DNA from: Modicisalibacter xianhensis
Lineage (GTDB): Bacteria > Pseudomonadota > Gammaproteobacteria > Pseudomonadales > Halomonadaceae
NCBI RefSeq assembly: GCF_900113605.1
Contig: NZ_FOPY01000015.1
Coordinates: 1 to 64,000, forward strand
Reading direction: 5' to 3'
DNA length: 64,000 nucleotides
Both the position numbers and the translations under genes were made by a program. This document shows positions 31,279 through 46,757 of this stretch, piece after piece. Position 1 is the first letter of the stretch; each line of letters opens with the position of its first letter. The notes under the pieces were generated by a model, which was not told the origin of the DNA, did no database searches, and was given only the letters and a program-made list of their open reading frames with translations.

Positions 31279-32691
31279 TCACGGAGTGACAAGTTCCAGC
31301 ATTGGCGACAGGGCCAGCCCGCCCTGTATCCCCAGGCTCGCCGCCAGCAGCAGCACCGCACTGGCCAGCAGCGCCACCTCTGACGACCGGCCCAGGGTGG
31401 GAAAGTCACCCCGCCCGGGCTGGAACATCGTCACGGCAATGACGCGCAGGTAGTAGAACAGCGACAGCACGGTGTTGGCGACGGCGACCACGGCCAGCCA
31501 GGTGTATCCGGCGGCCATGGTCGCCTCGAACAGCAGGAACTTGCCGAAAAAGCCGACCAGCGGCGGAATCCCCACCAGCGACAGCAACGCCAGGATCAAC
31601 ACCGCTGCAATGATCGGCCGGGTTCTTGCCAGGCCATGGTAATCGGCCAGGTCGGTGCGCCCACGCAGGTGGGTAACCACCGCAAACGCTGCCAGGGTGG
31701 CAAGCAGGTAAGCCAGCAGAAAGCCCAGCAGCGCCGTCATTGCGCCGTCCGCAGCATCGATGACCACGACGGCCATCAGCGCATACCCCGACTGCGAGAC
31801 CGAGGACCAGCCCAGCAGGCGGCGCACGTCGGTCTGTCGCAGCGCCGCCAGGTTGCCCAGGGTCATGGTGATCACGGCAAGCAGCGCGACGATGGATGAC
31901 CAGGCCATGCTGTCGGGCAGGATCGACACGAAGCGAGCCAGCGCCACGGCAGCGCCCACCTTGGGCACCACACTCAGTAGGGCCGCCGCCGGGGCCGGCG
32001 CGCCCTGGGCGACGTCCGGCATCCAGGCATGGCCGGGAAACGCCGCCAGCTTGAAGCTCAGCCCGATCACGATGCCCGCCGTGGCGATACCTAGCGCCAG
32101 CGTACCGCTGTCCTGCGTCGCAAAGCGCTCGGCCAGCCGTGCATAGTCGGTATCCCCCGCCAGGCCGAACAGGATCACGACACCCGTGGCCAGGAGCGTA
32201 TTGGTGAGCGCCCCGATCAGGAAATACTTCATCGCCGCTTCCAGTCCCGGCGACCAGCCCCGGTGATAGGCCACCAACGGGTAACTCGCCACCGACGACA
32301 GCAGCACGCCGACGATCAGTTCCATGGCATCGTTGGCCGAGGCCATCATGATGGCGCCGAGCAAGGCGAACAGCACCAGTGCGTAATATTCACCATGCCG
32401 ACGATCCGTACGCATCCATGCCGGTGACAGCAGCACGCCAATCGCGCCACCGATCAGTATCAGCCCTTTGGCGGCCAGTGCCGGGCCATCCAGCGCCCAG
32501 ACACCGGAAAACGTGGTGCGGGGTACGGACGACCACTGTCCCCACGTCAGACCGAAGGCAATCGTCAGCACCGCTAACGCCAGCCAGGCACACCAATGCT
32601 GGCGCCCGTGAGGCAGGAAAGCCGCCAGCAACACGATGGCCACGGCACCCAGCAGCAGGGCGATCTCGGGCAGCAGGTCACCGATGGGCAT
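31279..32691 (-). CDS. nuoN: NuoN-like antiporter subunit of complex I-like operon
   Basis: This 470-residue membrane protein of the Mrp-antiporter/NuoN family has the mid-membrane Lys K214 ('GLSFKLAAFPGHAWMPD') and a second Lys in 'LLSVVPKVGAAVALAR'. The TM5 glutamate that NuoN, M and L share is replaced: the equivalent 'GLEL' reads 'IVGVLLSSVASYPLV' with L130, the nearest acid being E124 six residues earlier. The start at 32691 overlaps the nuoM stop by 1 nt (TGATG); the longer frame is an antisense extension. It is the last gene of an eight-gene operon that lacks all NADH-module genes, so a plain NADH dehydrogenase label would mislead. Confidence 0.88.
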   Translation of the reverse strand: MPIGDLLPEIALLLGAVAIVLLAAFLPHGRQHWCAWLALAVLTIAFGLTWGQWSSVPRTTFSGVWALDGPALAAKGLILIGGAIGVLLSPAWMRTDRRHGEYYALVLFALLGAIMMASANDAMELIVGVLLSSVASYPLVAYHRGWSPGLEAAMKYFLIGALTNTLLATGVVILFGLAGDTDYARLAERFATQDSGTLALGIATAGIVIGLSFKLAAFPGHAWMPDVAQGAPAPAAALLSVVPKVGAAVALARFVSILPDSMAWSSIVALLAVITMTLGNLAALRQTDVRRLLGWSSVSQSGYALMAVVVIDAADGAMTALLGFLLAYLLATLAAFAVVTHLRGRTDLADYHGLARTRPIIAAVLILALLSLVGIPPLVGFFGKFLLFEATMAAGYTWLAVVAVANTVLSLFYYLRVIAVTMFQPGRGDFPTLGRSSEVALLASAVLLLAASLGIQGGLALSPMLELVTP

Positions 32692-34178
32692 CAGCGACCT
32701 CCCACCAGAATCGCCGACGACGCATCGATCAGCGTGAGCAGAAAGCGTGGATAGACACCGATGACCACGATGCCCAGCGACAGTACGCCAAGCACGCTCC
32801 ACTCACGCCGGGACAACTCGGGAAAATGCCCCAGATTCGTGGGCAGGCGGCCAAAGAACAGCCGACGAAGCATGTCGAGAAACAGCGCGGCGGTGACTAG
32901 GATGCCGAGCACCCCGAGCACGGCCAGCCACGGATAGATGGCGAACGTGCCGGTGAACACCTGAAACTCGGCGACAAACCCGGCCAGCCCCGGCATGCCC
33001 AGGCTGGCAAAGGCCGCCAGTACCGTGAAGCCGGTCAACAGCGGTGCCTGATAGGCCAGGCCGCCGTAGTGATCCAACGCATAATCGCCGGTGCGCTGCC
33101 AGAACGAACCGGAGATCAAAAACAGCGCCCCAGTGATCAGGCCGTGCGCCACCATTTCCACCGTTGCCCCGGTCAGGGCCAGTTGGCGTGCCGCCGGGTT
33201 GTCGGTGAGCAGCGAGGCAGCCACGGCGATGCCCAGTACCGTGTAGCCCATGTGATTGATCGAGGTATAGGCGATACGTCGCTTGAGGTTGGCCTGGCCC
33301 AGTGCCACCAGGGCACCATACAGGATCGCCACCAGCGCGAGGATGGCCACCGGGAGCGCATAGGTCGCGAAGGTTTCCGCCATCATCGCCAGCGGCAGGC
33401 GGATCATGCCGAAGGTGCCCAGCTTGAGCAGCACCCCGGCGAGGATCGCCGAGGCCGGTCCCGGGGCATCGACGTGGGCCTGGGGCAGCCAGGTATGCAG
33501 CGGCACCAGGGGCGTCTTGATCGCCAGTCCCAGCATCAGCGCCAGGAACACCAGTCCGGCATAAGTGCCCGTCCCGGCCAGAGGCTGCTCGGCAATCAGC
33601 ACCCGCATGTCGAAGGTCGGCGTCTCCAGCGACAGATAGAGGCCGATGATCCCCAGCAGCAGCAGCAATGAGCCGGCAAAGGTATACAGGAAGAACTTGA
33701 GCGCGGCGGTCTGTGCCTCGCCATGGCCCCAGCGTCCGATCAGGAAGAACATGCCGACCAGGGTCAGGTCGAAGAACACGTAGAACAGCAGCAGATCCAA
33801 GGTCAGGAACACGCCCAGCGCGGCACCCTGCAGGAACAGCAGCCAGGCGTAATACTGGCGGGGCTGGCCACGCGTCTCTACCGGATAGAAGATGGCCGCG
33901 ACGAACAGCACAGCACTCATGGTCGCCACCGCCAAGGCGATGCCATCGGCTCCCACACGGTAGGCCACGCCCAGCGACGGCACCCAACTGACTTCGTCGA
34001 TATGCTGGAACAGCGGCCCGTCCGGATTGAAGCCGAGCCAGGCGAAGACCAGCGCCAGCAGCGACAGGCCGGCACTGGCCGCAGCGACCCGACGAGCCTG
34101 CCCCTGCGTCCATCCGTTCAATACGGCCAGCGCCAGCGCACCAAGCCAGGGAATGAACAGCGCGAAGGTTAGAATCAC
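32691..34178 (-). CDS. nuoM: NuoM-like antiporter subunit
   Basis: This 495-residue membrane protein carries K221 ('GLAIKTPLVPLHTWLPQAH') and a downstream Lys in 'GVLLKLGTFGMIRL' as in NuoM. The TM5 acid is D137 ('YVFFDLTLVGMFF') rather than Glu. I chose GTG at 34178: TAGGAG lies 7 nt upstream, and it overlaps the nuoL stop by 4 nt (GTGA), whereas the longer frame has no support. It would form one of three antiporter-like channels of the membrane arm. The proton path appears intact apart from the conservative Glu-to-Asp change. Confidence 0.88.
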   Translation of the reverse strand: MILTFALFIPWLGALALAVLNGWTQGQARRVAAASAGLSLLALVFAWLGFNPDGPLFQHIDEVSWVPSLGVAYRVGADGIALAVATMSAVLFVAAIFYPVETRGQPRQYYAWLLFLQGAALGVFLTLDLLLFYVFFDLTLVGMFFLIGRWGHGEAQTAALKFFLYTFAGSLLLLLGIIGLYLSLETPTFDMRVLIAEQPLAGTGTYAGLVFLALMLGLAIKTPLVPLHTWLPQAHVDAPGPASAILAGVLLKLGTFGMIRLPLAMMAETFATYALPVAILALVAILYGALVALGQANLKRRIAYTSINHMGYTVLGIAVAASLLTDNPAARQLALTGATVEMVAHGLITGALFLISGSFWQRTGDYALDHYGGLAYQAPLLTGFTVLAAFASLGMPGLAGFVAEFQVFTGTFAIYPWLAVLGVLGILVTAALFLDMLRRLFFGRLPTNLGHFPELSRREWSVLGVLSLGIVVIGVYPRFLLTLIDASSAILVGGR

Positions 34179-36019
34179 AGCAAGGCTCCTATCCACAGCA
34201 ACACGAGAATGACGCCACAGCCGACCGCGATGCCGGTGTAGTAATGATGAGTCTGGCCGCTCTGGGCCTGACGGGCCCAACGCCCACCCCACTCGCTCAA
34301 GCGGGTCAGCGAGCCGGGCAGCGACTCACCGAGCCACTCTCCGCGCCCGGCGCCAAGCCGCGCGAGCCACTCCCCGGCGCGCGCCGTGGCCCGCAGGCCG
34401 GCATCGACCACCTCATCGTCGAAACGTGCCAGTCTGTGACCGAGCACGCTTGTCCAACCAGCCAGCGCGGCAGTCGCCGCCGACAGCCCGAACCACTGCG
34501 CCGCCATGGGCCGTTTTGCTTCCAGCTGCGCTGGGAGTGTCTGCCCGGGGCGCGTCATCCAGATACCGATGGCAATGCCTGCCGCGACCAGAAGCAGCGA
34601 CACGATCAGCAGCCAGAGGTGACCGGGTGGCAGGCTAAATGTCAGCGACTCGACAATCGATCGGTGCAGTTCGGGCCACCACAGGACTGACAATATCAAG
34701 GTGCCCACCACCAGCGCGCCCAATGACAAGGTTGCAGGCACGGAAGGCCCCGGCGCCTCGGGCAAGCCCGGCGTTAACGAATGTGGCGGCCGCCCAAAGG
34801 CCAGGCGCTGAAAGCGGGTCGCGTACAGGGCGCTCAGGCCACCGGCCAGCGACACCAACAGGGCCAGGACTACCGCCTGGTGGTAGGCCGCCGCCACGAC
34901 CTGTTCCTTGGCCCAGGCCGCACCCAGCGGTGCGACACCTGCCAAGGCCAAACTGAGTATCAGTGCCATGACCGCCACGCCCGGCAGCCGCCGGCCCAGA
35001 CGCATGTGAGTCAGGTCGAAGGTGCCGGCCTGGCGCTCGGCCTCGCCGGCCGACAGGAACAGTCCGGCCTTCATGAAGGCGTGGGCCACGAAGTACAGCA
35101 GGGCCACGCCCGGGAACCCGGCCCCTACCGCCACCCACATCAGCCCGTACTGGGCCGAGGTCGAGGCGGCCAGCAACTTCTTCGCGTGGTCCTGGCACGT
35201 AGCCACGATGCCGCCGGCCAATGCCGTGGCCAGGCCGATGACAACCGTGACGGGCGCAAACCAGGCCACATCCGAGAGCGCCGGTTCCAGACGCGCGATC
35301 AGGTAGAGCCCGGCGCTCACCAGGGTCGCGGCGTGCAGCAGGGCCGATACCGGCACCGGCCCGGACATCGCCGCAAACAGCCAGGCCGAGAACGGCACCT
35401 GGGCGGACTTGGCCGCGGCGGCGAGTAACAGGCCAGCCACGGCGACGTGCTTGAGGCCGCCCTGCAGTTGGGCCAGATCGTCGTAGCCGAAGCCGCCACT
35501 GCCGGCGAAGACTGCACCGGCGGCAATATACAGGCCCAGATCGCCGAAGCGCGTGACCAGAAACGCCGTCGCCGCATCGCGCGGCACATGCGGTTTTTCC
35601 CAGCGATGCGAGATCAATGCCCAAGAACAGGCCCCGATCAGCTCCCAGGCGATCAACAGGGTCAACAGATCGTCGGCGAGAATCAGCAGTTGCATGGCGC
35701 CGACGAAGGCCACCAGCAGCGCCAGCAAGCGGGCCCCGCTGCCGGCACCGGCGTAGATGACCACAGGCAGCGCAATCAGGGGCACCAGCAGCGCCGCGAC
35801 ACGCCCGGCCGGCGACATTGCCAAGCCCAGGGTCAACGTCTCGCTCCAGGCATAACGACTCGCCCCGCCGGCCGCCTCGGCCAGCCCGGCCATGGCCAGC
35901 GTCACCAGCAGCCCCGAGGCTGCCAGGGCCACCAGGCCTGCCTGGCCCAGGCGTCGGCCAGACAGATATAGCGCAGGCGCCAGCAGCAGCGGAACGAGGG
36001 GAACCAGCCAAAGCATCAT
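34175..36019 (-). CDS. nuoL: NuoL-like antiporter subunit
   Basis: This 614-residue protein is almost the same length as E. coli NuoL. It retains E126 ('LLIAWELIGACSW'), K204 ('AAAKSAQVPFSAWL') and the 'HAKKLLAASTSAQYGLM' stretch. After the core, an extended amphipathic C-terminal region (about 500-590) and a last TM helix ('HHYYTGIAVGCGVILVLLW') match the lateral helix that spans the membrane arm in complex I. It overlaps nuoK by 4 nt. The full lateral helix suggests a genuine multi-subunit arm and not a stand-alone antiporter. Confidence 0.9.
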   Translation of the reverse strand: MMLWLVPLVPLLLAPALYLSGRRLGQAGLVALAASGLLVTLAMAGLAEAAGGASRYAWSETLTLGLAMSPAGRVAALLVPLIALPVVIYAGAGSGARLLALLVAFVGAMQLLILADDLLTLLIAWELIGACSWALISHRWEKPHVPRDAATAFLVTRFGDLGLYIAAGAVFAGSGGFGYDDLAQLQGGLKHVAVAGLLLAAAAKSAQVPFSAWLFAAMSGPVPVSALLHAATLVSAGLYLIARLEPALSDVAWFAPVTVVIGLATALAGGIVATCQDHAKKLLAASTSAQYGLMWVAVGAGFPGVALLYFVAHAFMKAGLFLSAGEAERQAGTFDLTHMRLGRRLPGVAVMALILSLALAGVAPLGAAWAKEQVVAAAYHQAVVLALLVSLAGGLSALYATRFQRLAFGRPPHSLTPGLPEAPGPSVPATLSLGALVVGTLILSVLWWPELHRSIVESLTFSLPPGHLWLLIVSLLLVAAGIAIGIWMTRPGQTLPAQLEAKRPMAAQWFGLSAATAALAGWTSVLGHRLARFDDEVVDAGLRATARAGEWLARLGAGRGEWLGESLPGSLTRLSEWGGRWARQAQSGQTHHYYTGIAVGCGVILVLLWIGALL

Positions 36020-36321
36020 TGCTTGAGCTCGCTCAGTGCTTCGGTGGTATCGGCCTGCTTGCCGCGGAACACCGCCACCACCAGGGCAAAGCCCATGGCC
36101 ATCTCGATGGCCATGACTGCCATGACGATGATCGTCAGCAGTTGCCCCTCGGGTGCGCCGGCACCGCTATAGGCCCAGAACGCCACGGCGGCGAGCATGA
36201 CACCGTTGAGTATCAGCTCGAGTCCCATCATCAGCATGACGAAGGATTGCTGCGACAGCGCCCCGTAAAGGCCGATGCCGATCAGCGCGGCGGCAAGCAA
36301 CAATAGCGTGACCAGTGTCAT
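36016..36321 (-). CDS. nuoK: NuoK-like subunit
   Basis: This 101-residue protein has three helices and keeps both functional glutamates of NuoK: E35 ('MMGLELILNGV') and E73 ('MAIEMAMGFALVVAVFR'). The start at 36321 is backed by AGGGAGGC. NuoK links the connecting subunits to the antiporter-like ones through a chain of buried charges, and here that chain is preserved. It lies between nuoJ (22-nt gap) and nuoL (4-nt overlap). Confidence 0.9.
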   Translation of the reverse strand: MTLVTLLLLAAALIGIGLYGALSQQSFVMLMMGLELILNGVMLAAVAFWAYSGAGAPEGQLLTIIVMAVMAIEMAMGFALVVAVFRGKQADTTEALSELKQ

Positions 36322-36343
36322 TTCAGCCTCCCTGCTGACATGG

Positions 36344-36964
36344 TTAGTGATGGTGGTGATGCGCGTGACCGCCACCGGACTCGTCGTCCTCGGGCTGGCC
36401 CGCGGGGTCACCGCCCGGCTCCAGCCCCGGCGGCATCGAGCCCTCCTCGGCGGCGCCGTAGCGTCCTCGGTGGCTGGAAAGCACGACCACACCGATCATG
36501 GTGGCGAGCAGCACGATCCCCGCCGACTCGAAGATCAGCATCGAATCGCCGAGCATCTCCTCACCCAATGAGTGCACCGGATCGAGCCCGGCTGGCAGCG
36601 GGTCGGCCGGAAAGCTCGAAAATAGCGCCATGGCCGCCAGGATCACGAAGGCCACGCCGCCAGCGACGATCGACAGGCGATGCTGGTGCACCATCATCAT
36701 CGGGTTGAGCCCAGCCGGGTTCATCATGAACATGACCATGAACAGCGCCATGACCATCATTTCCACCGCCATCATGAAGAACATCGCCACGCCCAGGTAT
36801 TCGGCGGCCAGCAGGATCATGATCGCGCCGACGGCAATGAACGACACCAGCAGGAAAAACGAGGCCCGCACCATCGAATCGGTACGAAATACCCGCCACC
36901 CTGCCACGACCGCCAGCACGGCGAGCAGCAGGAAAGCGATATCCACAGCGATTGAATGCTCCAT
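36344..36964 (-). CDS. nuoJ: NuoJ-like subunit with native poly-His tail
   Basis: This 206-residue protein has five predicted helices. The TM3 segment aligned with the flexible Tyr-x-Gly-Ala bulge of NuoJ reads 'FFMMAVEMMVMALFMVMFMM', so the glycine is lost and an extra Glu appears. This region is very methionine-rich. After the last helix a hydrophilic tail ends in 'GGGHAHHHHH', six histidines in all. AAGGAG fixes the start at 36964. NuoJ-type identity rests on position, length and 'AAEYLGVAMFF' similarity. Confidence 0.82.
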   Translation of the reverse strand: MEHSIAVDIAFLLLAVLAVVAGWRVFRTDSMVRASFFLLVSFIAVGAIMILLAAEYLGVAMFFMMAVEMMVMALFMVMFMMNPAGLNPMMMVHQHRLSIVAGGVAFVILAAMALFSSFPADPLPAGLDPVHSLGEEMLGDSMLIFESAGIVLLATMIGVVVLSSHRGRYGAAEEGSMPPGLEPGGDPAGQPEDDESGGGHAHHHHH

Positions 36965-36975
36965 GCCCGTCTCCT

Positions 36976-37896
36976 TCATGCCCACAGGGCCAGCACGCCA
37001 GCCCATATCAGATCGACGAACGACAGCGGCAGCAGCACCACCCACATCAGCGTGACGCAGCGCTCCGGCGCCACTCGGGGCAGCCGGTGCCCCAGCCACA
37101 GCAGCAGCGCCAGCACGGCCAAGGTCTTGAGCAGCACCCAGACCGGCCCGGGCAACCAAGGGCCCAGCCAGCCGCCGAGAAAGGCGGTGGCGGCAATCGC
37201 GCTGAACGCCACCAGCATGACCGCGCGGGCAAGCTCCCAGGCCAGCCGCGACGGGCCCGACACCTCGGCGGACGTGCCCCCGGCCAGGTCCGTCGAATCG
37301 GCCAGGTTGAGTGGCCCCCAGAAGGTCAGGCCCAGGCCGACGACCAGAAACAGCGGCAGGCCCAGCGGCTGGCGGATCACGTTCCACAGCGACTCCTGCG
37401 CCGTCACGACCTGGGTCCACTGCAGCGACTCGGCCGGCAGGGCCACGCCGATCAGCACGAACATGCTGATCAGGATGTAGGATAGGCCCAGTGCCACGTA
37501 GCGGTAGGCGCCGATCAACGGCAGCACGGCATTGGCCGACCAGCCCTGCAGGAAGATGACCACCGTGGCCAGCGCCTCGACGCTGCCCCACAGCACCACG
37601 CTGGTGACCAAGTCAGTGGCAATCAGTGTCGGCGACCAAGGCACCACTGCCAGGCCGACCGCCGCCAGCGCCAGGTAAAGCGCCGGAGACAGTCGCCAAG
37701 CCTGCCAGTCGGGCGCTTCGGTGGCATTGGCCTGCTGTGTCAACAACCAGGCGGCCCGTGACAGGGGCCCCAGCCAGACGTCTCCGGCCATTGCGCCAGT
37801 GGGCGTGGCAACGAGCCGATCCAGCACGGCGACCACGTACGGCCCCAGCACCAGCACGACTGTCACCATGAGCAGTGAGGCAAGGGATTCGATCAT
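36976..37896 (-). CDS. nuoH: NuoH-like subunit, divergent
   Basis: This 306-residue membrane protein has about eight helices. NuoH features are recognisable but eroded: 'GWSANAVLPLIGAYRYVALGLSYIL' corresponds to the NuoH 'GW..N..YALLGA.R' stretch, and 'DLAGGTSAEVSGPSRLAWELA' to the quinone-chamber loop that normally contains 'PEAEQELVxGxxxEYSG'. The N-terminal 'ER..GR.Q.R.GPN' loop and the acidic cluster are missing. The quinone entry channel is therefore probably not functional as in complex I. It overlaps the BD fusion gene by 4 nt. Confidence 0.82.
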   Translation of the reverse strand: MIESLASLLMVTVVLVLGPYVVAVLDRLVATPTGAMAGDVWLGPLSRAAWLLTQQANATEAPDWQAWRLSPALYLALAAVGLAVVPWSPTLIATDLVTSVVLWGSVEALATVVIFLQGWSANAVLPLIGAYRYVALGLSYILISMFVLIGVALPAESLQWTQVVTAQESLWNVIRQPLGLPLFLVVGLGLTFWGPLNLADSTDLAGGTSAEVSGPSRLAWELARAVMLVAFSAIAATAFLGGWLGPWLPGPVWVLLKTLAVLALLLWLGHRLPRVAPERCVTLMWVVLLPLSFVDLIWAGVLALWA

Positions 37897-39161
37897 GCGC
37901 TTGCCTCCCTTGGCGCATCAGCGACTGCGCGGAGATCCAGGCTGGCAATCAGCGTCATCGCTTCATCCCACTCCAGGCCGGGCAGTACCTCGTCGAGCAG
38001 GGCGCTGCCATCCGCGGGCCGTTCATCGGCCCACGGGCCACGTGGCGTCTCGACTGCGCCGGTGTTGGCAGTGTGCAGGTTGTCGCGCTCGGCCTGGCGG
38101 GCCAGTTGCAAGGACTGTTTGATCTCCCCCAGCCACTGCTCCCAGCGGGCGCGTGTCGTACCGGCAGTGCGATATTGCGGCCGGAAGCCCAGCGACTGAT
38201 AGCTGGCGTCGTTGGTTCGCAAGTCCACCTCCAGCCCCGCAGCCCGCGCCGCCGGCCCGCCGAGATGCGATGCCAGCTCGCCATCGAGCTGAACACCGTC
38301 CATCGCAGCCAAGCGAAAGATGCCGCTGCGCATCAGCTGGCGACGCAGCCCGTCCAGCCGTGAAGATGACGTGAGTCGCTGGGACAGGCTCACTGCCTGA
38401 TGGGCGACATGCTCGAGTCCGGCCAGGTGCAGCGCCCGATAGAGCTGCACCAGATGGTGCCGTGCGCGGGCCAACTCGAGGTCGGCAATCGACACCGGAT
38501 GCTGCCGCGCGGCATGGAAGATCGGATCGAGCCGCTGTGGCAACGCCGCGTGCCGGGTCTCCCACGATTGGATGACATCGCCCTGCAGGGTGACTTCTGC
38601 GCATAGCCCGGCGGGCAGCAGCGGAAAAAACGGGCCAAGCCGAAAGGTCAGCGAGTCCAGCGTCAGGCCGTCGCGCAGATCGTTCTGCATGTTCATGGCC
38701 ATGGGCCGGCCATAGGGATTGCCGCCCATCATGCCCTCGCCACCATGACCATCGTCACCTAATCCCTTCCAGGGATTGGGCGGCTCGTCCGGCAGCAGGC
38801 GCGGGGCGCTCTCGCGCTGACCCAGCATCAGTTCACGGTGGGTGCGCACCAATGTCTCGATCAGTTGGTCATCTCGCGCGATCTGGACCGGCGCGCCCAG
38901 TGCCACGATGGGCGCGCCACGCAACCACACGGCGGCAAACGGGGCAGGCAACTGGTCATGCAGCCGTCGCAGGCCGTCACGTAGCGCAGCCGGAATCTCG
39001 CCGATCACCAGCAGCACGCTGGCATGGCGTGGCGAGTCGACCAGTTCGACCTGCGACGACAGCGCAAGCCTCGCCAACAGGGCATCGTCGTGCCATCCCC
39101 AGACGGGAAACACCGGCACACGCGAGCGCGCCGCCAACTGCCGTAGCCAGCTCACTGCCAT
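37893..39161 (-). CDS. Cysteine-less NuoB-NuoD-like fusion protein
   Basis: This 422-residue protein seems to fuse a NuoB-like domain (about 10-115, 'SPRHASVLLVIGEIPAALRD' and 'LRRLHDQLPAPFAAVWLRGAP') to a NuoD-like domain (about 160-415, 'GPAARAAGLEVDLR', 'YQSLGFRPQY', 'WEQWLGEIKQSLQLARQA'). The four NuoB cysteines that hold cluster N2 are absent; the only cysteine in the chain is C187. At 176-185 the quinone-site motif 'GPQHPATHG' reads GPFFPLLPAG, losing both histidines. A Gly/Met/His-rich linker (about 133-160) joins the halves. No NuoC domain is seen. A redox role is very unlikely; it may be a structural or regulatory cap on the membrane arm. Confidence 0.78.
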   Translation of the reverse strand: MAVSWLRQLAARSRVPVFPVWGWHDDALLARLALSSQVELVDSPRHASVLLVIGEIPAALRDGLRRLHDQLPAPFAAVWLRGAPIVALGAPVQIARDDQLIETLVRTHRELMLGQRESAPRLLPDEPPNPWKGLGDDGHGGEGMMGGNPYGRPMAMNMQNDLRDGLTLDSLTFRLGPFFPLLPAGLCAEVTLQGDVIQSWETRHAALPQRLDPIFHAARQHPVSIADLELARARHHLVQLYRALHLAGLEHVAHQAVSLSQRLTSSSRLDGLRRQLMRSGIFRLAAMDGVQLDGELASHLGGPAARAAGLEVDLRTNDASYQSLGFRPQYRTAGTTRARWEQWLGEIKQSLQLARQAERDNLHTANTGAVETPRGPWADERPADGSALLDEVLPGLEWDEAMTLIASLDLRAVADAPREASA

Positions 39162-39499
39162 CGGAACACCCCTTCACGCCAGGCGTAGACGATGCCCACC
39201 GACAGGATGGCTAGGAACATGCCCATCTCCATCACCGCCATCATGCCCTTCTCGACGAAAACCACCGCCCACGGATACATGAACATCATCTCCATCTCGA
39301 AAGCGATGAGCAGCAGCGTCATGGGGTAGTAGCGAATGTGGTAGCGGTTCCAGGCATGCGTATCGGGCGTGCCGCCGCCCAGAAACGGGGCACGCTGGGA
39401 ATAGGGTGGAATAGGCTGATGGCGCTGGGGCAGCCACTGGATCAGCAATCCAGCGCCCAGGGCCAGTGACAGGATGATGACGAGGGTCAGCAGCTCCAT
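39152..39499 (-). CDS. nuoA: NuoA-like subunit
   Basis: This 115-residue protein has three helices and the NuoA patterns 'NRYHIRYYPMTLLLIAFEME' and 'MYPWAVVF', ending 'YAWREGVFRW'. In NuoA the TM2 acids lie in F-D-x-E; here the motif is FEME, a conservative Asp-to-Glu change. It is the first gene of the complex I-like operon and overlaps the next gene by 10 nt. 91 nt separate it from the copper-storage gene upstream on the same strand. Confidence 0.88.
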   Translation of the reverse strand: MELLTLVIILSLALGAGLLIQWLPQRHQPIPPYSQRAPFLGGGTPDTHAWNRYHIRYYPMTLLLIAFEMEMMFMYPWAVVFVEKGMMAVMEMGMFLAILSVGIVYAWREGVFRWQ

Positions 39500-39590: not shown

Positions 39591-39923
39591 TCATGCGTTG
39601 GCAATCGCCTCGCATTCCTCGGCGCTGCGCTTGCAGGCCTCGGCGCACTGCTGACAATGCGCCATCTCGTGCTGGCGGCACTCGGCCTCGCACTTGCGGC
39701 AGAGTTCGGCACACAGCCGGCAGACTTCCTTCACATAGTCGCTGTTCTGAGCCATGAACGACGCGGCAAGGCGGCAGATCTGGGCGCATTGCATATCAAG
39801 CCGCACGCACTCGGCCATCATCTTGACGTCGTCTTCCTGAAGGCAGGACACCGCACAGTAATCGCAGTAGGTCGCGCATTCGTTGCAGGCATCGATACAA
39901 GACTTGAACTTCTCGAGATCCAT
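39591..39923 (-). CDS. csp: Csp3-like four-helix-bundle copper-storage protein
   Basis: This 110-residue protein has 18 cysteines, most spaced as CxxxC or CxxC along four helices ('CIDACNECATYCDYCAVSC', then 'CRLCAELCRKCEAEC'), plus a few His and Met. This is the DUF326/Csp family, whose members bind many Cu(I) ions inside the bundle. There is no signal peptide, so it resembles the cytosolic Csp3 rather than exported Csp1. AAGGAGG precedes the ATG. It points the same way as nuoA, and the copper-resistance operon starts about 7 kb away. Confidence 0.9.
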   Translation of the reverse strand: MDLEKFKSCIDACNECATYCDYCAVSCLQEDDVKMMAECVRLDMQCAQICRLAASFMAQNSDYVKEVCRLCAELCRKCEAECRQHEMAHCQQCAEACKRSAEECEAIANA

Positions 39924-43244: not shown

Positions 43245-44003
43245 TCAGTGCGTATGCCCATCGGCATAATGATCGTCTTCCTGCGCTGACGCCACCGTTG
43301 ACTGCGCGCTCGGCGATGACGACTCCGGGGCAGACGATGCCGAGGCCGCCTTTGCCTCGCCATTGTCGTCATGATGGCCCGGCTGGGCAGTATCGCCATG
43401 CGCTTCCTCGCCTTGGGCATGATGCCCCTGGGAGGAGTCCTGCATCATGGCACTCATGTCACCGTGGTTGTGATCGTGCCCATCGTCCTGGGGCGCATTG
43501 CCATCCTGGGTCTCCATGAGCGCAAAATACTGCGACTCGGAGAGCTCGGGCAGCCGCTGCAAGAAGGCTACCATTTCCCAGAGTTCCTGATCGGCGTGTG
43601 TTTCCCCCCAGGCGGGCATGCCCGACATCTTGATGCCGTGCTTGACGATCCAGAACTGCTCGGCGGGCGCCCAGTGCCCACCCTCGGCCAGAACCGGCGG
43701 CTGGGGGTTGAGCCCTTGGCGAAGCACCGTACTTTCCAGCCCAGGACGCAAATGACAGCTCACGCACATCTGCTGATAGGCGCGGGCTCCCTGGGTCACC
43801 ATCCGCTCGTCATCGAGGTCGGGCACATCGATACCCTCGGCATGTTCCTCGACGGAGTTGTGCATGGTCTTGTGGAAGGTCCATTCCACCCAAGCCGTGT
43901 GGGCATCACTGGCTGCCACGTTATAGGCTCCGCTATAGATATAAGCGATGCCACCCAGCGCCAACAGCAGCAGCGCCAGTACCGCTCCCAATAGAATCCT
44001 CAT
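43245..44003 (-). CDS. Membrane-anchored cytochrome c with His-rich tail
   Basis: This 252-residue protein has an N-terminal signal/anchor helix (about 4-24), then a class I cytochrome c domain (about 60-155) with haem motif 'CVSCH' and a likely Met ligand in 'GIKMSGMPAWG'. The C-terminal 85 residues are disordered, acidic and rich in His ('DDGHDHNHGDM', 'GHHAQGEEAHGD', 'YADGHTH'), so may bind copper. It sits between copB and copR, so may accept electrons from the CopA multicopper oxidase reaction or from Cu(I). Its exact partner is unknown. Confidence 0.85.
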   Translation of the reverse strand: MRILLGAVLALLLLALGGIAYIYSGAYNVAASDAHTAWVEWTFHKTMHNSVEEHAEGIDVPDLDDERMVTQGARAYQQMCVSCHLRPGLESTVLRQGLNPQPPVLAEGGHWAPAEQFWIVKHGIKMSGMPAWGETHADQELWEMVAFLQRLPELSESQYFALMETQDGNAPQDDGHDHNHGDMSAMMQDSSQGHHAQGEEAHGDTAQPGHHDDNGEAKAASASSAPESSSPSAQSTVASAQEDDHYADGHTH

Positions 44004-44057: not shown

Positions 44058-44819
44058 CTAGAACCACAGGCGAATCCCGGCGACGACACCACTCCCTTCG
44101 ACCTCACCAAACTCGTCGCGGGTAAAATCTGCGGTCTGGCCGTACTGCTTCTCCCAGTACCCACCGACATAAGGAGCGATCTTGGGCGTAATCTGGTAGC
44201 GCAAGCGCAGCCCCAGGCGGGTGGAGTTCAGCCCCTCGCCGACCCCGAACTCCTCGACATCGCTGCCTGCCAGCTCGATTTCGGCACGAGGCTGCAGGAT
44301 GACACGCTGAGTGACCCGCAGGTCGTATTCGCCTTCCAGCGAGGCGGAGACATCACCATCCTCACTGACCCGCAAGGAAGTATCGACCTCGATGCCGTAG
44401 GGCAGCGTGCCCATCAGCCCGACGACCGCGAAGCCACGCTCGGGATGATCACCGCTACCCAGGCCTCCTTGATAACCCAGGCCGCCCTGCAACTCCCAGA
44501 AGTCCGCGATCAAATGACTGTAGAGCAGGTCCAGCGACTCGAACTCGGCATCTTCGCCGTCGCCCTGGGTATTCTCGCCCTCGCCCTTGAGGTAGACCCG
44601 CTGGCGATCCCCGCCGTACCAGCCCTGGAAATCCCACACCAGGGCCTCTTCATTGTCATCGCTCCAGGCGTACTCGAAGCGATCGACGAGCAATGTCCCG
44701 AAGTGATGCTCCTGCATGGCCACTCCCCACCCCGGCGGAATGTCCTCGACCTGGGCCAGGGCCGCCGAGGCCAGGGAAAGTGCGCCGATGCCGGCGACTG
44801 CGCGTGCACAAACATTCAT
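44058..44819 (-). CDS. copB: Copper-resistance outer-membrane protein CopB
   Basis: This 253-residue outer-membrane beta-barrel protein of the CopB/PcoB family has a signal peptide (about 1-22, 'ASAALAQVEDIPPGWG'), the family opening 'MQEHHFGTLLVDRFEYAW', alternating amphipathic strands, 'RLGLRLRYQITPKIAPYVGG', and the terminal aromatic 'GIRLWF' needed for barrel assembly. Unlike some CopB proteins it lacks the long His/Met-rich N-terminal repeat. It starts 12 nt after copA and probably works with it in periplasmic copper handling. Confidence 0.92.
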   Translation of the reverse strand: MNVCARAVAGIGALSLASAALAQVEDIPPGWGVAMQEHHFGTLLVDRFEYAWSDDNEEALVWDFQGWYGGDRQRVYLKGEGENTQGDGEDAEFESLDLLYSHLIADFWELQGGLGYQGGLGSGDHPERGFAVVGLMGTLPYGIEVDTSLRVSEDGDVSASLEGEYDLRVTQRVILQPRAEIELAGSDVEEFGVGEGLNSTRLGLRLRYQITPKIAPYVGGYWEKQYGQTADFTRDEFGEVEGSGVVAGIRLWF

Positions 44820-44831
44820 CGTAGTATTCCC

Positions 44832-46709
44832 TCAAGCGACCTTGACGACCCGGAACATGCCGGCATCCATGTGATAAAGCAGATGGCAGTGGAACGCCCA
44901 ATGCCCCGGAGCATCGGCGGTGACGAGCGCGGAGACCCGTTCGCCCGGCTTGACGTTCAAGGTATGCTTGCGTGGAATCAGCTCGCCGGCGCCGTTCTCC
45001 AGTTCCATCCACATGCCATGCAGGTGAATGGGATGCTCCATCATGGTCGTGTTGACGAAAATCAGGCGCAGGCGCTCGCCATGCGCGAAATGGATGGGGC
45101 CATCGACCTCGCTAAACTTCTTGCCGTCGAACGACCACATGTAGCGTTCCATGTTGCCGGTCAGGTGCAGTTCTAGCTCTCGCCCCGGCGGGCGTCGGTC
45201 CGGCCAGGGTGTGCGTGCCTTGAGGTCGCCGTAGACCAGAACGCGGCGCTCTGCCGGGTCGATGCCGATACCCGCCTGATCATAGCGGGACTCCGGCTGC
45301 GCGACCCCAGCGGCCAACAGCCCACTGCCATGCGCAGCCGAGGCAGTCTGGTCCGCAGGCGTATGGTTCATCTCTGCCATCGGCGCATGGGCCGTGCCAT
45401 GCGCGCCATGATCCATGCCAGCCATTGACGAATGATCCGTCCCAGCCATCGACGAATGATCCGTCCCAGCCATCGACGAATGGTCCATCCCGGCCATCGA
45501 CGAATGGTCCATCGCTGCTTTCGCTGAATGATCGCTGCTGCCGGTACTCATCGACGCGTGATCCATACCGCCGCCATGGGCTGCCATGGCTTCCATGCCT
45601 CTGTCAGCGATTCGGCGGCGCTCGGGAATCGGTGCCACCATGCCCAGGCGCGGCGCCAGCGTGGCACGCACATACCCGCTACGATCCATGGCTTCGGCAA
45701 AGATGGTGTAGGCCCGGTCCGCCTCGGGCTCGACGACGACGTCATAGGTCTCGGCCACGGCGATCCGGAATTCATCAACGGGTACCAGCTGTACCGGCTG
45801 CCCGTCGGCAGCAACGACTGTCATCTTCACACCGGGAATGCGTACGTCGAAGTAGCTCATCGCCGAGCCGTTGATGACCCGCAGTCGGAGCTTCTCACCC
45901 GGCCGGAACAGTGCCGTCCAGTTGTCCTGCGCAGTATGGCCGTTGACGAGATAGGTGTAGGTGCTGCCAGTGACGTCGGCGATATCGCGGGAACTCATGC
46001 GCATCTGCTGCCACATGCTGCGCTGCTTCCAGGTCTCCGCCAGGCCGTGCTTGGCGACATCGTCGAAGAAGTCGACGAGGGTGCGCTCCTGGCGGTTGTA
46101 GTAGCCTTCGGCGACCTTGAGGTGGCGGAACACGTCGCGCGGATCCTCGAAAGTCCAGTCGGTCAGCAGCAGGACATGCTCGCGATCGTAATGGAACGGC
46201 TCGGGTTCGGCCGGCTCGATGAGCATCGGCCCGGCATGGCCCAGTTGCTCCTGCAACCCCGAGTGGCTGTGATACCAGTAGGTCCCATTCTGGTTGACGG
46301 GAAAGCGGGCCGTGAAAACCTCGCCAGGCGCAATGCCTGCATAGCTCAGCCCGGGCACGCCATCCATGTTCGATGGCAAAATGATCCCATGCCAGTGAAC
46401 GGACGTTTTTTCATCAAGCAGGTTGGTGATCTTTAACGAGGCGTCCTGGCCTTCTCGCAAGCGAATCAGCGGCCCCGGGCTGGTGCCGTTGAGTGTGATC
46501 GGATAGGCCGTCTTGCCGGCGATCTGCCGGGCCTCGCGACGCACCGCCAAGGATACCTGCGGGCCGTCCTCGAGCCCCTGGGGATAAACGTTGGCCAGGC
46601 CGGCAGGGGCCGCCCAGGTCGGACGCACACCCAAGGCAGCGGTGGACAGCCCCAGCAGGGAGGCGGCTTGAAGAAGCTGTCGCCGGGACAGCAGGGGAGC
46701 AGAGGGCAT
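44832..46709 (-). CDS. copA: Multicopper oxidase CopA with Met/His repeats
   Basis: This enzyme of about 625 residues is exported by the Tat pathway ('LLSRRQLLQAASLLGLS' at the N-terminus). It has three cupredoxin domains: 'SVHWHGIIL' and 'GTYWYHSH' supply trinuclear copper ligands, 'HPIHLHGMWMEL' and 'HCHLLYHMDAGMF' the T1/T3 sites. Between domains 2 and 3 is a Met/His-rich insert including four tandem copies of an octapeptide like MDHSSMAG, a copper-binding feature. It oxidises Cu(I) in the periplasm. I prefer ATG 46709 (AGGA upstream); ATG 46736 would add nine residues and has no ribosome site. Confidence 0.93.
   Translation of the reverse strand: MPSAPLLSRRQLLQAASLLGLSTAALGVRPTWAAPAGLANVYPQGLEDGPQVSLAVRREARQIAGKTAYPITLNGTSPGPLIRLREGQDASLKITNLLDEKTSVHWHGIILPSNMDGVPGLSYAGIAPGEVFTARFPVNQNGTYWYHSHSGLQEQLGHAGPMLIEPAEPEPFHYDREHVLLLTDWTFEDPRDVFRHLKVAEGYYNRQERTLVDFFDDVAKHGLAETWKQRSMWQQMRMSSRDIADVTGSTYTYLVNGHTAQDNWTALFRPGEKLRLRVINGSAMSYFDVRIPGVKMTVVAADGQPVQLVPVDEFRIAVAETYDVVVEPEADRAYTIFAEAMDRSGYVRATLAPRLGMVAPIPERRRIADRGMEAMAAHGGGMDHASMSTGSSDHSAKAAMDHSSMAGMDHSSMAGTDHSSMAGTDHSSMAGMDHGAHGTAHAPMAEMNHTPADQTASAAHGSGLLAAGVAQPESRYDQAGIGIDPAERRVLVYGDLKARTPWPDRRPPGRELELHLTGNMERYMWSFDGKKFSEVDGPIHFAHGERLRLIFVNTTMMEHPIHLHGMWMELENGAGELIPRKHTLNVKPGERVSALVTADAPGHWAFHCHLLYHMDAGMFRVVKVA
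45424..45519 (-). repeat. 24-bp tandem repeat inside copA
   Basis: About four head-to-tail copies of a 24-bp unit encode the octapeptide MDHSSMAG with M/T variation at the first position. The unit length is a multiple of three, so gain or loss of copies keeps the frame. It changes the number of Met/His copper ligands in CopA. Confidence 0.85.
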
Positions 46710-46757
46710 GGCAACATCCTGCGCAGTCAAAGACATGCCGGATTCTGCGTCAATAAC

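Follow-up and report, generated by a model that had tools for sequence, protein, structure and literature searches.

How quinone chemistry is coupled to proton pumping in respiratory complex I (NDH-1) is a long-standing question. Folds of the same kind also work without electrons: the Mrp antiporters, which have NuoL/M/N-type and NuoK/MrpC-type folds, carry out redox-free ion transport. As a functional analogy of another sort, methionine thioethers serve as ligands for Cu(I) in CusCBA, the P1B ATPases and the Ctr1 importer. The energy-converting hydrogenase-related (Ehr) complexes, as described in part of one publication (PMC6349859), belong to the complex I superfamily and have lost the metal ligands of their active site with the antiporter-like subunits kept. 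Here we describe an eight-gene operon of Modicisalibacter xianhensis, located within the first 64,000 nucleotides of contig NZ_FOPY01000015.1 (hereafter the window), in which the electron path and quinone ligands of complex I have been removed and the antiporter-like subunits, NuoJ and NuoK have been kept. In our judgement it is very probable that the complex is linked to copper. The odds appear about even that it is an ion-gradient-driven Cu(I)/Ag(I) exporter built on a complex I chassis, as its sequence suggests. We propose somewhat more tentatively that it may represent a new metal-transporter class, in which a redox-free complex I arm, run backwards by an ion gradient, would use a trunk of NuoA, NuoJ and NuoK (A/J/K), lined with methionines, to expel Cu(I)/Ag(I), on chromosomes and plasmids of scattered bacteria.

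The operon occupies positions 39499-31279 of the window on the minus strand, as do all of the operon features located below. It consists of eight open reading frames (ORFs): nuoA (39152..39499, 115 aa; PF00507, 2.7e-24), a fusion of NuoB- and NuoD-like parts that we call BD (37893..39161, 422 aa) and that is without cluster or quinone ligands, nuoH (36976..37896, 306 aa; PF00146, 5.1e-39), in which several canonical acidic residues are altered, nuoJ (36344..36964, 206 aa; PF00499, 2.2e-19), nuoK (36016..36321, 101 aa; PF00420, 2.5e-16), nuoL (34175..36019, 614 aa; PF00361, 6.2e-43), nuoM (32691..34181, 496 aa; PF00361, 1.6e-62), and nuoN (31279..32691, 470 aa from the ATG at 32691; PF00361, 1e-60). 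The open ORFs and Pfam matches confirmed the gene set of the original prediction, which had listed NuoA, a NuoB/NuoD-like fusion and homologs of NuoH, J, K, L, M, and N. A Nuo model was the top NCBIfam match for all seven membrane subunits, and the membrane arm of complex I (A, H, J, K, L, M, and N) is present by both Pfam and NCBIfam matches. The tight overlap claimed for the genes was found at five of the seven junctions, or six if NuoJ begins at an upstream in-frame ATG at 36979, with a short gap between nuoJ and nuoK. The operon has no space for an NADH/ferredoxin-binding module or for NuoI, and the annotated public records contain A-BD-H-J-K-L-M-N only. The reported lack of nuoC, nuoE, nuoF, nuoG, and nuoI was correct for the cluster. 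The genome has a separate canonical nuo operon on another contig. The operon proteins are annotated in databases as "NADH-quinone oxidoreductase", "hypothetical protein" or "heavy metal-binding domain-containing protein".

A BD match was found in 53 of 275 Halomonadaceae genomes, 42 of which had a match of at least 50% identity (family 1) and 11 a weak one. Of 44 family-1 loci, 42 gave matches to the full set of eight subunits, and the remaining two run off a contig end; L060 and L068 hold fragments, the latter (G266:C2) being a copy broken by stop codons, and the duplicates L016, L017, L018, and L020 (of L062, L063, L077, and L082) were excluded from counts. The nearest relative, Modicisalibacter luteus DSM 23508 (G145), counts as a member of the same genus. 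Comparison of its copy with that of the window gave dN/dS pairs of 0.060/0.92 for A, 0.138/0.95 for BD, 0.046/0.52 for H, 0.036/0.63 for J, 0.022/0.47 for K, 0.186/1.03 for L, 0.043/0.61 for M, and 0.082/0.59 for N. The ratio is 0.05-0.18 for all eight genes, indicating that they are under purifying selection, and together with the 42 carriers among 275 genomes this means that the operon is no relic. An assembly artefact or frameshift was ruled out by the same ratios and by the occurrence of the same architecture in dozens of genomes. At L069:9049-10521 (G150:C19) is a remnant in which a DUF326 gene, nuoA and the beginning of BD run directly into a nuoN fragment; the same genome has an intact copy (L084).

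Seven of the 11 weak Halomonadaceae loci were read (genomes G162, G166, G167, and G168 lie outside this set), and all encode A, a long BD, H, J, K, L, M, and N. These seven, 13 gammaproteobacterial loci and plasmids of Paracoccus, Roseovarius and Rubrobacter make up a second family of 23 BD proteins (family 2). The 13 loci are the strong matches among 369 genomes of the class, and weaker matches, which resemble the heavy metal binding domain (HMBD) of other proteins, were left out. Families 1 and 2 are 42% identical in J and K combined and group together in a single clade that excludes the 30 canonical sequences, both with and without the Met-rich columns described below (support 0.996 and 0.986). 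The system is sporadic, since a NuoJ of this kind was found at an E value of at most 1e-15 in only nine of 398 sampled genomes of the phylum, four of them Halomonadaceae. One intact copy is on a plasmid typed as conjugative.

The D part of BD was recognized by PF00346 (NuoD, 3e-7), and a family profile searched against the PDB placed BD residues 169-412 on NdhH/NuoD (1.2e-17, chain 9grx_H) and residues 34-83 on MbhJ/NuoB (1.5e-8). The NuoB part also gave a weak match to NCBIfam nuoB_fam (0.006), and its identity is assigned by these sequence profiles; the fold-search rows shown for BD were filled by NuoD chains, with the NuoB domain not among them. The AlphaFold2 (AF2) model of BD had a predicted local distance difference test (pLDDT) score of 84 and a predicted TM-score (pTM) of 0.84, and its D part superposed on NuoD chains with a Z score of ~22 over ~245 residues. 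Within the PDB, the BD profile matched NdhH best and the NuoJ profile NdhG, both of photosynthetic NDH-1. With regard to an Ehr-type large subunit without Ni-Fe ligands, BD has no conserved Cys, and its profile matched NdhH/NuoD best and the Mbh alpha subunit less well.

The window proteins contain few Cys (A 0, BD 1, H 1, J 0, K 0, L 3, M 0, and N 1). The search for the NuoB cysteines that hold cluster N2 found one Cys in the window BD, a best Cys column of 58% in 43 family-1 BD sequences and no invariant or 90% Cys column among 41 BD sequences, in keeping with the earlier claim that no protein of the operon has a cysteine cluster for iron-sulfur centers. Where NdhH has its quinone-site motif GPHHP/GPQHP, the BD profile has GPFFP, without the histidine, and two sequences of family 2 have GPCFP and GPVFP. 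In addition, the D part is ~135 residues shorter than NdhH over the span aligned to chain 9grx_H. Based on the Cys columns, the change in this motif and the shortening of the D part, BD would not be expected to form cluster N2 or a normal quinone site.

The charged residues that would carry ions are retained. NuoK E35 and E73 (counted from the ATG at 36321) and NuoL E126 and K204, all named in the original prediction, are present. In NuoL, E126, K204, H229, K317, and K371 are fixed in the 42 family-1 and seven family-2 members aligned. The same is true of K222, K253, and E405 of NuoM (39 family-1 and seven family-2 members), in which position 138 is Asp in family 1 and Glu in family 2, and of E151, K214, K244, and K384 of NuoN (41 and seven members). 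The charges kept in L, M, and N, and the cluster and quinone ligands lost from BD, agree with the earlier suggestion of a complex seemingly capable of ion movement but not of NADH:quinone chemistry.

A further feature of the operon is the methionine (Met) content of NuoA, NuoJ and NuoK. In family 1 these subunits have 9.0, 8.7, and 9.1% Met, respectively, versus 2.7, 4.0, and 3.4% in canonical gammaproteobacterial proteins (30 each); the family-2 values are 3.9, 10.2, and 8.7%. NuoH, L, M, and N showed no Met enrichment relative to the canonical set of the same genome. Nineteen positions (A69, 71, and 74; J31, 64, 65, 69, 72, 76, 81, 89, 91, 142, and 156; K30, 32, 68, 71, and 75, in window numbering, which for K is one higher than from its ATG) are Met in all family-1 sequences (45/45 for A, 46/46 for J and K) and in all 22 family-2 sequences, except K32 with 20 of 22. 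The same 19 columns of 30 canonical NuoA, NuoJ and NuoK proteins have Met in 0-5 of 30, the highest being J156, and contain mostly Leu, Val, Ile, Ala, Pro, and Glu/Gln, with Tyr at J65 in 30/30. NuoA residues 60-94 (39218..39322) have Met 69, 71, and 74 fixed in both families, Met 60, 72, and 94 fixed in family 1, and Met90 in 44/45 sequences, and NuoJ residues 61-91 (36692..36784) have Met 64, 65, 69, 72, 76, 81, 89, and 91 fixed in both families. Across A, J, and K, 21 of the 39 window Met are invariant in both families versus 29 of the 194 Leu/Ile/Val/Ala/Phe residues; a few of these Met (A92, J78, J80, and K33) are shared with the canonical proteins. The helices with fixed Met presumably surround the E-channel coupling region of complex I.

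Intact ion paths, and Met sites concentrated in A, J, and K only, would also be expected of an ion channel gated by copper, or of a copper-dependent control on proton motive force, in which Cu(I) bound to the Met sites switches flow through L, M, and N and protects the cell under copper stress, the metal itself not being moved. The metal-binding linker and motifs of BD could then serve as sensors. We consider this explanation unlikely, as 19 fixed Met spread across most of transmembrane helix 3 (TM3) of NuoJ, parts of A and K, and other NuoJ segments would seem to be more than a simple sensor needs.

Additional candidate metal sites are in the BD protein and the NuoJ tail. The linker between the B and D parts of BD (residues 132-167, 38661..38768), which was modeled with low confidence, has the family-1 consensus GEGMMGG.PYGRPMAM, with Met 144, 145, 154, and 156 fixed in 43/43 sequences; M156 is common to 35 family-1 and six family-2 sequences. 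In family 2 the same place bears motifs of the form CxMHP...CxxCGM, which Pfam names HMBD (PF19335, up to 2.5e-70 in the three proteins scanned). The BD proteins of the seven family-2 loci read are 617-665 aa long and have these motifs together with His-rich stretches. By pattern, 1-7 HMBD motifs were found in 21 of 23 family-2 BD proteins (L163 has none and L165 is cut by a contig end), including 7/7 of the weak Halomonadaceae loci read. NuoJ ends in a His-rich tail (36347..36370), and at least four His occur among the last 14 residues in 42/46 family-1, 0/22 family-2, and 0/30 canonical NuoJ proteins. Based on loop charges and the positive-inside rule, this tail and the NuoJ loop with M31 are predicted to be on the cytosolic side, and the M89/M91 loop has a weak positive charge in family 1 and a slight negative one in family 2. 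If these sites bind metal, the loop charges would suggest movement out of the cytosol.

Up to seven HMBD copies in one protein, a His tail of >100 residues in the NuoJ of two Roseivivax copies, and a Cys-rich neighbor protein with homologs in 7/47 family-1 regions would all suit a membrane store or buffer, in which Cu(I) is held in thioether and His sites and passed to other exporters. That neighbor is a DUF326 protein encoded directly upstream of the operon on the minus strand (39591..39923; 18 Cys in 110 aa; PF03860, 2.8e-8), which we take to resemble the four-helix copper-binding proteins. However, eight conserved subunits with fixed ion-path residues would make a costly sponge, and we regard storage as improbable.

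The gene neighborhoods of BD-fusion homologs, whose survey had been suggested as a check on the original prediction, showed an association with copper. Copper markers were found near 27 of 47 family-1 and 11 of 23 family-2 operons versus none of 20 control regions chosen by position on the same contigs, a co-occurrence above background, although the markers were partly drawn from positive loci and the counts and Fisher tests ignore genome relatedness. With the marker-source loci removed the counts were 22/42 and 8/20. Its counts cover the loci other than L069, a remnant, and L130 and L133, which are plasmid copies cut short. In the window itself, a CopB-type gene (44058-44819, minus strand; 64% identity over the best aligned pieces to an annotated CopB) and a CopA-type multicopper oxidase gene (44832-46736, minus strand; 70% identity over the best aligned pieces to an annotated multicopper oxidase) are present, and a response-regulator/histidine-kinase pair was recognized by eye. 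The translation of the multicopper oxidase contains a run of Met/His repeats (DHSSMAGMDHSSMAG-like). A c-type cytochrome with a long His-containing tail (43245-44003) adjoins CopB, and has homologs in seven loci.

Annotated records of other carriers were similar. CopC, CopD, an azurin-type protein, a multicopper oxidase, CopB, and DUF411 are beside the plasmid-borne operon of Halomonas KO116; CueR, a P1B ATPase, a heavy-metal-associated protein and a multicopper oxidase beside those of Roseivivax; and a multicopper oxidase and CopB beside that of Roseovarius. The Rubrobacter record has a P1B ATPase, and a metal-sensitive regulator and a copper-binding protein directly before nuoA, and that of Paracoccus has a multicopper oxidase, a metal-sensitive regulator, a P1B ATPase and also arsenic genes. 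A truncated Martelella copy is beside CueR, a P1B ATPase and a multicopper oxidase, and a truncated Xanthobacter copy beside a "bilirubin oxidase". Thioether and HMBD sites cannot tell Cu(I) from Ag(I), and the same machine could have another cargo or direction, such as Ag(I), Hg(II), another thiophilic ion, or copper uptake for cuproenzymes. We think this rather unlikely, as neighbors such as CueR, CopA/CopB/CopC/CopD and azurin-type proteins suggest copper stress.

Unbiased clustering of 70 regions, with clusters named from annotated records, similarity or Pfam matches, or by eye, gave EgtB (19), multicopper oxidase (15), histidine kinase (13), CopB (11), P1B ATPase (11), and EgtD (11) as the top nameable neighbors. 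The egtB gene (19 family-1 loci) is directly downstream of nuoN, and egtD (11) also follows nuoN, both on its strand, e.g., L022:3733-6062; these genes form a second, tight link and were not seen beside the window copy. A family of ~119-aa proteins with no Pfam match (L072:12107-12466) recurs near both families (seven loci). DabA (DUF2309) and CupA/B were absent from the annotated neighbors and recognized neighbor clusters, no dedicated search having been made, and the neighborhoods gave no support for CO2 uptake or general halophile ion homeostasis, though neither was tested directly. Copper had been one of several conditions that the original prediction suggested for testing; it had not foreseen the fixed Met of A, J, and K, the HMBD motifs of family 2, the His tail of NuoJ or the frequent copper-resistance neighbors.

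Within the 45 contigs (4.36 Mb) of the genome, C16 carries the canonical nuo operon (A, CD, H, and J-N by search, NuoB by PF01058) and C39 a probable Mrp locus, the latter judged from frame lengths only. Two further, closely similar copies of the operon are on contigs C33/C15 and C11/C37 (L021-L024), each split by contig ends inside nuoL, and the C33 copy adjoins CusA-type, DUF411-type and P1B ATPase genes. Elsewhere in the same genome, the region L025:8718-16278 (G000:C21) encodes a NuoB-type protein of 260 aa (PF01058) beside genes resembling by eye a soluble [NiFe] hydrogenase and maturation proteins.

Canonical complex I NuoCD was found in 87 of the 275 Halomonadaceae genomes. Among the 42 family-1 carriers, 31 have a canonical nuo operon and 11 lack canonical NuoCD. 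A PF01058 (NuoB-type) search in 10 of these 11, G266 being omitted, found none in nine and one protein of undefined kind in G056. Three of the nine are single-contig genomes, one of the nine is only 80% complete, and two of the 11 carriers lacking NuoCD are incomplete (G212, 80%; G266, 74%). Because nine of the 10 tested carriers without NuoCD also lack any NuoB-type protein, the arm does not have to rely on a borrowed redox module. The sharing of a canonical redox arm, which had been named as a finding that would speak against the original prediction, is thereby ruled out as a general account, but could occur in this genome, with its canonical nuo operon.

These data also bear on the weakest of the alternatives, that the operon encodes a copper-proof stand-in for complex I, or an arm with an undefined redox partner, that has no clusters since copper destroys Fe-S centers. 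Copper does damage Fe-S clusters, and a canonical nuo operon is present in 31/42 carriers. Nevertheless, the quinone-site histidine and all conserved Cys are gone, nine carriers have no NuoB-type protein at all, and no recurrent redox partner was recognized in the neighbor clusters except those of periplasm type, e.g., the c-type cytochrome in seven loci. We consider this explanation highly improbable.

An ion-conducting arm without electrons, fixed thioethers in A, J, and K, metal-binding additions and copper neighbors are most simply accounted for by a copper- or silver-handling machine. In the exporter that we propose, the redox module would have been discarded and the A/J/K region rebuilt with methionines for Cu(I) (or Ag(I)). 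Cytosolic Cu(I) would be captured by the Met-rich BD linker and the NuoJ His tail, or in family 2 by tandem HMBD motifs, and passed on to the BD-H-A interface, into the chamber that cluster and quinone have vacated. From there a path lined with methionines would lead it through A, J, and K into the periplasm, for oxidation or removal by proteins of the CopA/CopB/Cus type. The metal step would be powered by ions (protons) flowing through NuoL, M, and N, in the reverse of complex I coupling.

Several observations weigh against such an exporter. Family 2 has no NuoJ His tail. In circular tests the Met of NuoJ TM3 did not gather significantly on one side of the helix (P=0.27 for derived Met; 0.41 when canonical Met were included; 0.12 for the family-1 set), nor did those of NuoA (P=0.86 and 0.91), and the NuoJ structure model was poor (pLDDT 54), too poor for a fold search. 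In NuoH of family 1, canonical E157 is changed to Ile (86%), E241 to Arg (all) and D213 to Asn (90%), and in NuoM of the same family the canonical Glu is Asp (D138). None of the copper markers was found in 20/47 family-1 and 12/23 family-2 regions, some of which are short contigs. EgtB, the most frequent neighbor, functions in ergothioneine synthesis and points at least as much to oxidative stress. Lastly, some loci also encode P1B ATPases or Cus-type pumps, and a second exporter, of eight subunits, would need a reason. The corresponding test of the K TM3 Met gave P=0.05, or 0.37 with the family-1 extra, and NuoH of family 2 likewise has Arg at E241, with D213 kept. A one-faced methionine ladder in NuoJ TM3, considered as a candidate arrangement, was unsupported by the circular test.

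If the proposed export is correct, this complex would be, to our knowledge, the first in the complex I superfamily to move a transition metal. It would also be a naturally occurring variant, free of redox chemistry, in which the ion-moving mechanism of complex I is separated from its quinone chemistry. Should copper be transported, the same long-range coupling could drive, or be driven by, metal movement, and would become accessible to study in the absence of redox reactions. A large, unrecognized and partly plasmid-borne system would then join those that handle copper. Searches of the open-access literature, judged by titles and the starts of abstracts and with preprints and most subscription papers outside their reach, found no description of this complex.

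HMBD-type motifs do occur in neighboring P1B ATPases as well, but no RND (resistance-nodulation-division), P-type ATPase or Ctr1 family was among the Pfam matches of the operon membrane subunits, all of which were complex I families. Mrp antiporters share weak NCBIfam cross-matches with operon subunits; however, the seven membrane subunits were best matched by Nuo, not Mrp, models, and we know of no Mrp counterpart of NuoA, NuoH or BD. The likeness to Ehr complexes drawn in the original prediction is no more than an analogy. Ehr complexes are related to group 4 hydrogenases, whereas the operon keeps the complex I A/J/K set and its Fe-S ligands are gone too. Respiratory complex I is the closest relative, with the A, H, J, K, L, M, and N arm in canonical order, NuoB- and NuoD-like parts and the charged residues of L, M, N, and NuoK in common. 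The operon differs from it in having no NuoC, E, F, G, or I, in the fusion of B and D, in the absence of the cluster Cys and quinone His, and in its Met-rich A, J, and K, Met-rich linker, and His tail or HMBD motifs. Based on these comparisons, the complex is a variant within the complex I superfamily, and would become a new transporter class if transport were shown.

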